Origin: Chthonomonadaceae bacterium
Lineage (GTDB): Bacteria > Armatimonadota > Chthonomonadetes > Chthonomonadales > Chthonomonadaceae
NCBI GenBank assembly: GCA_025352825.1
Contig: JANXSG010000097.1
Location: 1-60,075, forward strand
Reading direction: 5' to 3'
Length of the DNA stretch: 60,075 nucleotides
This document shows positions 4,262-48,175 of the stretch, piece after piece. How positions within the stretch are numbered: position 1 is the first letter of the stretch; each line of letters starts with the position of its first letter. The position numbers were made by a program, and so were the translations under genes. The notes beneath the pieces are model-generated. The model was given only the letters and a program-made list of their open reading frames with translations. It ran no database searches and was not told the DNA's origin.

Positions 4262-4517
4262 ATTTTACATTACAAACATCGTGAATCTTTTAACGATGTG
4301 CGTAGCTCTAAGAGACAGAGACACGGCACTAAAGTACCGGTCTGGATTTGCAAAGCCCATCTCCGGTCGCTAGACGCTTCCTGCATGGGCTGAGAATCCT
4401 GGTTTAGTCACCCCCTCTCCCTTGCGAGCTATCGAGCAGTCTGGGAGAGGGGGACGGGGGGTGAGGTTAAAAGATTCCCAAACATCGTGAATCTTTTAAC
4501 GATGTGCGTTGTGTAAA
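4262..4517. repeat. Family A intergenic repeat, copy 1
   Basis: This copy has a C-rich/G-rich hairpin core (CCCCCTCTCCC at 4411-4421 pairing with GGGAGAGGGGG at 4443-4453). Before it lies a block containing GTACCGGTCTGGATTTGCAA and CATCTCCGGTCGCTAGACGC. It is bracketed by direct repeats of CATCGTGAATCTTTTAACGA near 4276 and 4482. The same modules recur at 6615-6880 and, inverted, at 47866-48035. It fills the gap between the helicase and gpsA and contains no gene. Confidence 0.85.
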
Positions 4518-6510: not shown

Positions 6511-6880
6511 GAGGTAATTGCAAGAGTCATAAACAGTATATATTTGATTACTGCTTTGCCTAGTCCCCTTCCCACTCAAACGATTAAGCTGTTTGTGTTA
6601 GGGAGGGAGGAGAATCAACGCAAGTTGCCTTGTAAGGTATTAACGATGTGTGTTTTGTAAGTGCCTAAAACCATGCGTCGATTTGTTAGGACGTGGCACT
6701 GAAGTACCGGTCTGGATTTGCAAAGCCCATCTCCGGTCGCTAGACGCTCCGTGCATGGGCTGAGATTCTCGGTTTAGTCACCCCCTCTCCATTGCGAGCT
6801 ATCGAGCAGTCTGGGAGAGGGGGTCAGGTTAAAAATTCCCGAACATCGTGAATCTTTTAACGATGTGCGTTGTGTACGTT
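6511..6880. repeat. Composite repeat: family B end plus family A copy 2
   Basis: GAGGTAATTGCAAGAGTC at 6511-6528 is a solo left end of the family B element (one mismatch to the 18-bp consensus). From about 6615 a second family A copy follows, with the GTACCGG...TTGCAAAGCCC block, the C-rich/G-rich hairpin at 6781-6823 and the CATCGTGAATCTTTTAACGA tail. The 6469-6912 interval holds no gene. Confidence 0.8.
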
Positions 6881-14676: not shown

Positions 14677-15126
14677 CCGTGCACTGAATCAACTACAAAA
14701 ATATTCAGTGGGACTATTTTTCACTATCCATTTAACTGCCCGAATTTGCGTCCGGTATTTCTATGAGAAATGATCCTTTAGAGGATTCATCGATCGTATT
14801 TATCACTCCAATTTAGTCCTTGAATGAGTCTACAGGGGAAACGTTCTCATTTGCTATGGCTTAACGGATGCTATGAAAACGTTCATATAGCACATCAAGA
14901 GTTATTCATCAGTAGTTCACTTTTATGCAACCTCTGACGTTACCACCTGTTCCAATTGGGGGGGTATCGTACTCATTGGTTGTCTCCTTGAATTAAAATC
15001 GGAAATATTATAATCTTAACATATTATACTACTCTTCGGGCTAGTAGGCAAAATGCTTATAGACTAATCATTCCAATATTCCCCATACTGAAAACTTATG
15101 AGGTTATTGCAAAACTAAAATCTACA
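14677..15126. other. Intergenic region with two AACGTT-centred sites
   Basis: No gene is apparent. GAAACGTTCTCAT (14836-14848) and GAAAACGTTCAT (14874-14885) are similar sites about 39 bp apart, and GCTATG is repeated beside them. AACGTT cores are typical of LacI-family operators, but no promoter for a specific gene is evident. A degenerate family B end (GAGGTTATTGCAAAA) is at about 15100. Confidence 0.4.
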
Positions 15127-15385
15127 GAGGTAATTGCAAAAGTCAGTGTGTACGCATATTTCAGCCCTCACCCCCCGACCCCCTCTCCCAAAAACAGGAG
15201 AGGGGGAGCTTTAAATCGTTGGTCTGCACATTACATACAAGTAAGTGATGAGCTTCTAGTGAGATCAAAACTTAATATCATACTGGCAAACCCATACTCG
15301 ATTCTCCCCCTCTCCAGTTTTTGGGAGAGGGGGCAGGGGGTGAGGGGTGAAATATCCGTATATATCCGACTTTTGCAATTACCTC
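15127..15385. mobile_element. Family B miniature element, copy 1 (259 bp)
   Basis: Perfect 18-bp terminal inverted repeats: GAGGTAATTGCAAAAGTC at 15127-15144 and its complement at 15368-15385. Just inside each end is a C-rich/G-rich hairpin (15179-15206 and about 15306-15333) of the kind shared by all the intergenic repeats here. No transposase is encoded. A diverged copy in the opposite orientation lies at about 25167-25434, and solo ends lie at 6511-6528 and 38595-38612. Confidence 0.85.
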
Positions 15386-24803: not shown

Positions 24804-24883
24804 GCCTGCGCCAACAGGGCGGTTTCTCGGTGAATTTTCGCATACTTCCCTTGTAATCCCATTAGAGCTATTTCTCTGACTTG

Positions 24884-25121
24884 AAAACTCCCGGCATCAA
24901 AAAACAAACGTCTTTCAGACGCGATTCCACCCGCAGGGCGATTGGCCGCAGACCCTCCAGTCAGGTACTTTAGTGCCTGGCATTATGTCGGCGACACTCC
25001 AGTCATTACTATTTCTGTGAGTTCAAAACTCCCGGCATCAAAAAACAAGCGTCTTTCAGACGCGATTCCACCCGCAGGGCGATTGGCTGCAGGCCTCCCA
25101 GACAAATACTTTAGTGCCTGG
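24884..25121. repeat. Family C repeats, two direct copies
   Basis: Two copies of a roughly 97-bp unit lie at 24884-24980 and 25025-25121. Each starts AAAACTCCCGGCATCAAAAA, contains the small hairpin CGTCTTTCAGACG, and ends at TACTTTAGTGCCTGG. Further copies are at 38361-38469 (inverted) and 48068-48175. Confidence 0.85.
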
Positions 25122-25166
25122 CGTATGCCGCAGAGAAATGCATATGAGATTCTAAAGAATTAAAGA

Positions 25167-25434
25167 GAGGAGCCTTTTGCAAAAGTCTCATAAAGGTTAA
25201 AACACTCTTCACGCCCTCACCCCCCATCCCCCTCTCCCAAAAACAGGAGAGGGGGTGACTATGACATGGGGTTTTCAATATTATATAGGGTTTTGATCTC
25301 ACTATAAGCACATATCTCGCGAAATGGGAGATAGGAAACCAACGATTTAAAGCTCCCCCTCTCCGGTTTTTGGGAGAGGGGGATGGGGGGTGAGGGCTGG
25401 AATATGTGTTTGCACTGACTTTTGCAATTACCTC
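25167..25434. mobile_element. Family B miniature element, copy 2 (about 268 bp)
   Basis: The right end GACTTTTGCAATTACCTC (25417-25434) is a perfect family B terminus, while the left end (25167 onward, TTGCAAAAGTC) is degenerate. Inside are two C-rich/G-rich hairpins (25229-25256 and 25355-25382). The interior matches copy 1 (15127-15385) in reverse orientation, for example GCTTTAAATCGTTGGT and TAGTGAGATCAAAAC. Confidence 0.8.
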
Positions 25435-25676
25435 AGAGTTTAAATGAATTTCTGCGATTCTTATTTTTCCCCTGTATTTCTCTGTGCGCTCTGTGTCTTT
25501 GCGGTTTAATTTCTTTACGAAGGTATTCGTTAACGTAACGCTTATGGAGGTCTGGGGTGAAGAAAAGATCGAATCGAAGCAAAAATATGCACACTCTCTC
25601 ACAATATGGTAGAATACCCCTGAAGCAGAGTATCGTCTTTTGTTCCTAATGTCAGTAAGGTGGGGAAACGAGGAGA

Positions 25677-38179: not shown

Positions 38180-38612
38180 TTTAACCTCACCCCCCGTCCC
38201 CCTCTCCCAGGCTGCTCGTTCCTCGCAAGGAAGAGGGGGTGATTCAATGAGGAATCTCATTCTCTGCAGGGAGCCTAAGCGACGGAAGATGGGCTTTGCA
38301 AATCGAGCGGGGGGTTTTAGGAGATGTGAAAGTAATAAGAAATATTACTCCTTCATGTACCAGGTACTAAAGTACCTGTCTCGGAGGCCTGCGGCCAGCC
38401 GTCCTCCGGACGGAATCGCGTCTGAAAGACGCCTGTTTTTTTTGATGCTGGGAGTTTTCAACTCCCGGAAATAGTCAGACATGAGATTGCTTTCATAACC
38501 CTTTCAGCCTGTCGATACTAGTATAAAAATCCTTACCTTAACGTCTATGGGTGACGGGGGGTGAGGGCTTTAACGAGTTTTTCAACTACTTTGTGACTTT
38601 TGTAATTACCTC
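38180..38612. repeat. Composite intergenic repeat block (families A, C and B)
   Basis: In order: a partial family A unit with the C-rich/G-rich hairpin (38199-38236), an inverted family C unit (38361-38469), and a solo family B end GACTTTTGTAATTACCTC (38595-38612). No gene is present between 38175 and 38744. Confidence 0.8.
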
Positions 38613-45400: not shown

Positions 45401-45536
45401 CATTTAACCTCACGCCAACCCCTCTCCCATTTTGCTCGCACTGCTCACAAGGGAGAGGGGGTGAAATGACCGTGCATTTGCCCCTCTCCCCGCGAGGTAC
45501 CAGCAACTGGGAGAGGGGTTGGGGTGAGGTTAAATG
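45401..45536. mobile_element. 136-bp element with about 28-bp inverted ends
   Basis: The left end begins CATTTAACCTCACGCCAACC and the right end is its complement with about one mismatch over 28 bases. Two C-rich/G-rich hairpin modules lie inside. It lies between rluB and the binding-protein gene, in the leader of the latter, and could have changed its promoter or start. It encodes nothing. Confidence 0.75.
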
Positions 45537-47865: not shown

Positions 47866-48175
47866 GATTCCCCCGTCCCCCTCTCCCAGACTGCTCGATA
47901 GCACCCAAGTGAGAGGGGGTGACTAAACCGAGAATCTTAGCCCATGCACGGAGCGTCTAGCGATCGGAGATGGGCTTTGCAAATCCAGACCGGTACTTTA
48001 GTGCCGAGTCCCAACAAATCAGCGAAGGGACTTAGGGGCTGTGAAAGTAATAGCATATACGACTGTTTCGGGAGTTAAAAACTCCCGGCATCAAAAAACA
48101 GGCCTCTTTCAGACGTGATTCCCTCCCGCAGAGCGGTTGGCCGCTGGCCTTCCAGACGGGTACTTCAGTGCCCGG
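47866..48175. repeat. Inverted family A copy 3 and family C copy 4
   Basis: A family A unit in reverse orientation (C-rich/G-rich hairpin at 47878-47917, then the GGAGATGGGCTTTGCAAATC block) is followed by a family C unit at 48068-48175 (AAAACTCCCGGCATCAAAAA). No gene is present between 47793 and 48371. Confidence 0.82.

Follow-up and report, generated by a model that had tools for sequence, protein, structure and literature searches.

A MITE family with mirrored pairs of apparent triplex motifs as cargo and a sibling element lodged within them

Introduction

The window analysed here is the whole stretch of 60,075 nucleotides, which at positions 15127-15385 holds a short repeat with inverted ends and C-rich/G-rich hairpins in its interior. 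The locus raises the question of what kind of element this is, how such a unit moves and what the hairpins are. Our account, which we consider very probable when taken as a whole, is that of a non-autonomous MITE moved in trans by an IS5/IS1182-like DDE transposase, with pairs of triplex motifs (TMs) as cargo and a sibling MITE landing in those TMs. The TM, earlier named PIT, is a G/C-rich motif; Holder et al. 2015 (PMC4666352) link it to instability, and the TM of E. coli is reported to form a triplex in solution.

The element, its copies and its target sites

The 18-bp terminal inverted repeat GAGGTAATTGCAAAAGTC is present exactly at 15127-15144 on the plus strand and, as the exact complement, at 15368-15385 on the minus strand, confirming the perfect ends and the enclosed unit of 259 bp that a sequence-only reading had described. 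Within the window the end has seven matches at up to three mismatches, while shuffled sequences give 0.04. No ORF of at least 100 aa is among the ORFs listed in 15127-15385, and at the gathering threshold of Rfam a tRNA was the sole match in the window. As a single DNA strand the unit is predicted to fold into a near full-length hairpin (-83.7 kcal/mol, z -14.6). Since this copy sits between divergent genes, for a DUF58/VWA protein on the minus strand and a GFO/IDH/MocA oxidoreductase on the plus strand, a role as transcription terminator is unlikely.

The flanks of the 259-bp boundaries (TACA/ATAT) differ at all four bases, so that no clean target duplication is seen there. An extra, degenerate outer end, GAGGTTATTGCAAAACTA, lies at 15100-15117 on the plus strand, and the flanks taken from it (TTAT/ATAT) differ at one base in four, with no exact duplication. 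Because of this closer agreement, the unit that moved may be 15100-15385 (286 bp), with the outer end as its true left boundary. A similar doubled left end is present at locus L052:524-823 (C49), where an exact TACT duplication lies outside the outer end; the two ends are 27-35 bp apart at this locus and in the window.

The genome of the window (G000; 4.87 Mb in 298 contigs, 95% complete) contains 195 matches to the 18-mer at up to two mismatches (94 on the plus and 101 on the minus strand), against a single match, on the plus strand, for the reversed control; by our own count of the list 59 of the 195 are exact. Several contigs of the lineage break off in repeats of this kind. The whole element yields at least 104 alignments to this genome, in many cases with one palindromic copy aligned in both orientations (40 scored out of 490 first-look candidates). 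A second copy of the same family, which we call family A, lies in the window on the minus strand at 25170-25434 (265 bp). It has the ends GAGCCTTTTGCAAAAGTC and GAGGTAATTGCAAAAGTC, two TMs inside (approximately 25213-25255 and 25353-25402) and a clean AGAG duplication on both sides (25166-25169 and 25435-25438). The inverted copy noted earlier at 25167-25434 is thus real, but its left limit is 25170, where GAGCCTTTTGCAAAAGTC, an end variant present in further copies, begins. Single ends with one mismatch each had been read as solo ends at 6511-6528 (plus strand) and 38595-38612 (minus strand); both are there, but by eye they are remnants of broken copies, the former with an interior like that of L060, L061 and L063 followed by REP-type sequence, the latter with a family-A arm whose TM is cut off beside REP-type sequence.

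The absence of further paired 18-mers had been named as what would speak against such a family; the fetched parts of G000 hold 51 closest inward pairs (up to three mismatches per end, less than 640 bp). An exact 4-bp duplication flanks 14 of the 51 and one with at most one difference flanks 25, whereas shuffling the right flanks gave a mean of 1.04 exact duplications and at most 6 in 2000 trials. Many copies are probably old or wrongly paired, because 37 of the 51 have no exact duplication and 26 differ at two or more bases.

An exact 18-mer scan of GTDB genomes returned at least 88 stretches, where rough arithmetic predicts about 7 by chance in 257 Gb. Among the 88 stretches listed, 21 of 49 pairs in other genomes (up to four mismatches per end) carry exact 4-bp duplications, compared with a mean of 0.77 and a maximum of 5 in the shuffle control; at up to three mismatches per end the fraction is 17 of 36 pairs, from 80 of the 88. 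A looser list of 72 candidate pairs spans 49 to about 590 bp, and includes a few longer candidates, either IS copies or uncertain pairs.

With its terminal inverted repeats and its short, non-coding, multi-copy unit, the element has the features of a MITE. A target duplication of constant length is found for the family, though not at the 259-bp boundaries of 15127-15385, and the ends are those of an autonomous transposon at L268, described below, and of decayed relatives at L133-L135 and C213. The proposal of a second miniature-element family is upheld by the copy number, the 4-bp duplications and the transposase found between such ends. At L067:1469-1517 (C273) we also observed a 49-bp near-perfect palindrome of two MITE ends whose flanks (AACACTT/AAGTGTT) are inverted, not direct.

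We clustered 133 distinct ends from the fetched stretches (up to two mismatches, at least 60 nt inside) by their subterminal sequence, a procedure that places the left and right arms of an element in different clusters. The clusters contain 66, 18, 11, 7, 7, 3, 2, 2 and 2 ends, with 15 singles. The cluster of 66 is family A; those of 18 and 11 are the two arms of family B (CCTAACCCCC.. and CCCCTTCCC hairpins), the two of 7 are the arms of family C (GACGAAATGAATTTCTTCGC hairpins) and that of 3 is a B-like subfamily. Families A, B and C are all mirrored hairpin pairs seen with both ends (for example in the window, at L011 and at L029), and at least three different paired interiors are enclosed by the same end. 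A fourth interior, with hairpins GGACAGGAGCTCCGTCTCCTGCC / GGGCAAGGGCTCCGTCCCTTGCC, appears at single ends near the contig starts at L069 (C22) and L070 (C142), and a short copy of 133 bp (L005) resembles an arm fusion.

The triplex-motif module

Each arm of a family-A copy reads CCCTCACCCCCC-NN-CCCCCTCTCC-loop-GGAGAGGGGG. The left TM of the window element spans 15165-15206 on the plus strand, with the third strand CCCTCACCCCCC at 15165-15176, the linker GA at 15177-15178, the arms at 15179-15188 and 15197-15206 and the loop at 15189-15196. Beyond the element centre (15207-15305), the right TM, read from the sequence as a mirror of the left, lies at 15306-15347 on the minus strand, with the arms at 15306-15315 and 15324-15333, the linker CA at 15334-15335 and the third strand GGGGGTGAGGGG at 15336-15347. 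Set by eye against the TMs tabulated for E. coli in PMC4666352, the C-rich/G-rich hairpin appears to match the published intrastrand triplex motif: a pyrimidine/purine hairpin is joined by a short linker to a third strand that mirrors the purine arm, down to a third-strand T at the position where the arm has A. The TM of E. coli likewise has a pyrimidine/purine hairpin, a short linker and a third strand (GGGGTGAGGG), and mirrored pairs occur there too, as in family A. According to that paper, however, remnants of transposases or integrases were never found around the E. coli TMs, whereas the TMs described here are enclosed by transposon ends, and the family concerned shows 4-bp duplications.

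Conservation within the element is uneven. In 17 distinct family-A copies picked on ends and centre, the mean column identity is 0.960 in the arms, 0.914 in the third strands, 0.869 in the loops and 0.852 in the ends, against 0.739 in the weakly conserved centre (element positions 83-177), 0.690 in the spacers and 0.539 in the linkers; the values of the ends and the centre are if anything too high, because the copies were picked on them. Arms and third strands together reach 0.943, compared with 0.725 for centre plus spacers (p = 3e-15, with columns that are not independent) and 0.677 for the G/C columns of centre plus spacers alone. Conservation alone is no proof of a selected fold, since stem covariation is weak: of the 610 stem cells in a partly redundant 31-row MAFFT alignment, 577 are paired and only 5 show changes on both sides.

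The excess conservation of the TMs could be due to recombination or gene conversion between TM repeats and not to selection on structure, an explanation that we rate as a serious if somewhat doubtful one. The TMs are numerous and near-identical, the instability linked to them by Holder et al. (PMC4666352) would suit it, and so does the weak covariation. Conversion tracts would, however, homogenise the linkers too, and the linkers are the least conserved columns of the TM (0.539, as stated, from 4 columns only).

The TM is not confined to these MITEs. In the fetched G000 DNA, 91 sites matching the TM half-pattern, a sample picked partly by TM and partly by ends, comprise 30 with a MITE end just outside, 18 in TTTAA-type repeats with another loop and 43 others, of which 24 have the family-A loop and are perhaps partly decayed copies. 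Some TMs outside the MITEs adjoin REP-type sequence. In the window, a mirrored TM pair of 132 bp without MITE ends (TTTAACCTCAC ... GTGAGGTTAAA) lies at 45403-45534 in another repeat background, and it is the only pair that a strict pattern found in looking for a partner end of the TTTAACC-type TM repeats. The idea that unrelated families have one module in common has held: the module matches the TM, and it is found outside these MITEs as well, in repeats with another hairpin loop.

At up to one mismatch the half-pattern is present in 14 of 61 genomes, with 59+69 matches in G000 and 1 to 8 in each of the others. Since 1 of the 49 MITE pairs of other genomes, among the 88 stretches listed, matched a loose TM pattern, TM cargo is so far seen only in this lineage among these matches.

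We think it improbable that the TM modules were independent mobile units inserted into a simple 18-bp-ended MITE, so that later nesting and not co-amplification would account for them. TMs with other loops or contexts away from the ends (61 of the 91 sites, in a sample partly picked by TM and with some probably decayed family-A copies) agree with nesting, as do relatives that have TMs and hardly any such ends, for example G006 with 8 TM matches and 1 end. Against it, the spacers, the centre and both TMs stand in one mirrored layout common to the family-A copies, as expected from amplification as one unit, and an incidental reading of the family-A copies revealed none in which the TM site is cleanly empty.

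The transposase and its IS

An apparently intact IS of 1510 bp with the same end was found at L268:1036-2545, in the Syntrophobacterales MAG GWC2_56_13. It has the exact 18-mer at one end and GAGCCAATTGCAAAACTC at the other, TGTT duplicated on both sides and a transposase ORF of 365 aa, in which DUF772 (34.0 bits) and DDE_Tnp_1 (32.3 bits) both pass the Pfam cut-offs of 23.1 and 23. By tblastn it is the only one of the 88 listed stretches that encodes the transposase. We call it IS5/IS1182-like and name no subgroup, because the cut-offs of the curated NCBIfam models were not reached (68.8 of 270 bits for IS1182, 63.3 of 140 bits for IS5_4).

Transposases of the same DUF772 + DDE type lie between such ends in G020 (L134:967-2393 and L133:1169-2153), in G025 (L135:38-1435) and, decayed, in G000 (C213, 982 bp). 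The L268 protein has 42% identity with the G025 copy (232 aa aligned) and 51% with the C213 relic (102 aa aligned). The copies in G020 and G025 have broken frames and GAGGTAATTGCAAAA-type ends, one G025 end starting with CAGG, and no exact 4-bp duplication was seen by eye at L133, L134, L135 or C213. One IS end carries the letters of the local MITEs (..AAAAGTC in G000, ..AAAATTC in G020), and the G025 IS end ..AAAATTA is close to its MITE ends ..AAAATTC.

Partial or decayed IS copies are present in G000, where the L268 protein has seven matches, located at C95, C139, C213 and C149; internal stops interrupt three of the seven. None of these matches spans the whole protein, and an intact transposase was not seen among them, the frame at C95 being open to the contig end. 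Beyond the ends, no sequence common to family A and the IS was seen that would point to descent of the former by internal deletion. Another candidate IS, L280 (1230 bp, perfect ends), was dropped, since its ORF had no tblastn match to the L268 transposase.

A 420-aa IS4-family protein at C70 is very unlikely to be the cognate transposase. Its gene, an open DDE ORF, does lie between such ends in G000 (1700 bp; 6 mismatches over both ends together), yet by eye it has an inverted repeat of its own (CTGTTCGGTTAACATA / CTGTTCGTTTAACAT) within a family-B-type element, L061 and L063 have similar ends without the IS4 gene, and the DUF772 type lies between such ends at five other places (C213, L133, L134, L135 and L268). 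We rejected it as the partner (L110:14-1713), as it appears to be nested in a family-B-type MITE.

Also very unlikely is a REP/RAYT system, with the mirrored hairpins as REPs moved by a tyrosine (Y1) transposase: two Y1-type genes do exist in G000 (C171 and C294), each by eye between inverted REP-like repeats, but those repeats are similar to other repeats of the window (4320-4458, 6690-6828 and 47872-48036; 24868-25122 and 38360-38441) and not the element, neither of the two Y1 genes found being bordered by it, and 18-bp inverted repeats with 4-bp duplications are, to our knowledge, not the RAYT/IS200 signature. The first group of window repeats, which is of REP type, is by eye also the inverted pair around the RAYT-type gene at L122 (C294), and the second, another REP-type repeat, resembles by eye the repeat around the Y1 gene at L121 (C171).

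For the preferred IS5/IS1182-like reading, the following mechanism would apply. An IS bearing these ends would provide, in trans, a DUF772 + DDE_Tnp_1 transposase of the DDE class, and this enzyme would recognise GAGGTAATTGCAAAAGTC or GAGCCTTTTGCAAAAGTC and insert the unit at 4-bp, mostly AT-rich sites, duplicating the site; both the mobilisation in trans and the chemistry of transposition we infer. Only the ends seem necessary, which would explain why the same terminus can enclose different interiors. Family A would carry two TMs in mirror orientation, and its transposition would therefore spread TM pairs. In turn, a sibling MITE whose end is related (GAGG......CAAAAGTC) would land in the TMs, at the linker that joins the hairpin to the third strand.

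A sibling MITE lodged in the triplex motifs

Several MITE copies are split within a TM by one further element. This sibling, a MITE of 157-159 bp with the ends GAGGGYGGGTCAAAAGTC, is located outside the window in G000 (L345-L374 and L396-L405), where at least 40 copies are 91-100% identical to a 151-base query (40 of 53 candidates scored). Its end and the 18-bp end of the window element have GAGG and CAAAAGTC in common, position for position. Among the sibling copies with both flanks, 13 of 20 show exact 4-bp duplications at the extrapolated ends.

All 40 scored sibling copies were inspected; of their 60 readable flanks, 59 have a run of at least four C or G within 15 nt, in 57 of them no more than 4 nt from the insertion; the one flank without such a run is at L400. 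The copies are not all independent, as L351 and L362 have the same flank and so do L352 and L401. A separate pass over sibling ends in overlapping loci found the run in 51 of 51 flanks, compared with 3.7% of the 15-mers of the window; at the MITE ends of the window element's type, 1 flank of 131 adjoins a C/G run. By eye, the runs at the sibling are parts of TM-type modules of family A, of family B and of one TTTAACC-type repeat (L396). The flanks show a site preference of the sibling for the TM linker between hairpin and third strand, an apparent targeting.

A search of 291 genomes of the phylum for the sibling ends gave 32+29 matches in G000 and one site with a single mismatch in each of 2 of the 290 others; a transposase for the sibling was not found. 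We offer only tentatively, as rather unlikely, that the sibling reads the TM as a folded structure, or its double C/G run, and inserts at the linker. TM-bearing MITEs would then be mobile landing pads, and cargo and targeting together one route of TM spread and instability in bacteria.

Discussion

As a MITE the element is ordinary, and it belongs to a widespread IS type. ISs of the IS5/IS1182 superfamily and their MITEs are alike in DDE_Tnp_1 with DUF772, short inverted repeats, a small direct duplication and non-coding derivatives that keep the ends only; they differ in that the model cut-offs were not reached here and that this MITE bears triplex motifs. What sets it apart is the TM pair as cargo and the sibling lodged in TMs, and a literature search at title and abstract level found neither a description of MITEs that carry TMs nor one of insertion into TMs.

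The nearest parallels are found among elements that insert into palindromes. REP-targeting ISs (ISPsy8, ISPpu9, ISRm22 and others; PMC1525189) have copies mostly or wholly in a palindromic repeat family; here, in contrast, the target is a triplex motif and the inserted element a MITE, mostly within other MITEs. IS1111 enters Coxiella QMITE2 through the GTAG palindrome of that MITE (review PMC10969869) and so also uses a MITE-borne palindrome as landing site, but there two IS copies lie in a REP-type palindrome, whereas here at least 40 MITE copies lie in triplex motifs. In the stem-loop-replacing transposition of IS1272 (PMC5678879) a hairpin-forming target guides the insertion as well; it replaces the target without a duplication, unlike the sibling with its 4-bp duplications.

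These results give a mobile-DNA setting to the TM, a repeat whose spread was unexplained. A transposon family whose ends and duplications are clear carries TMs as cargo, the TMs are more strongly conserved than the remainder of the element, and a second element uses them as its insertion site. Two questions thereby become testable: by what route TM-type motifs are dispersed, and whether non-B DNA can be recognised by transposases.

The exact 18-mer itself extends to distant taxa, the matches listed including Lentisphaerota, Syntrophaceae/Smithella, Chlamydiae, Fibrobacterota, Sumerlaeota, Treponema and others. Viral contigs had no exact 18-mer and no relative of the first 240 aa of the G025 transposase. 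End matches of the 18-mer type number 95 in G020 and 147 in G025, and the elements of about 89 bp read there, in a sister family (L082 and L105), have the ends GAGGTAATTGCAAAATTC / CAGGTAATTGCAAAATTC, finishing in ..AAAATTC. In a Chlamydiae MAG we saw three copies (L308, L327 and L334) of a 291-bp element whose exact 18-bp ends are identical to those in the window.
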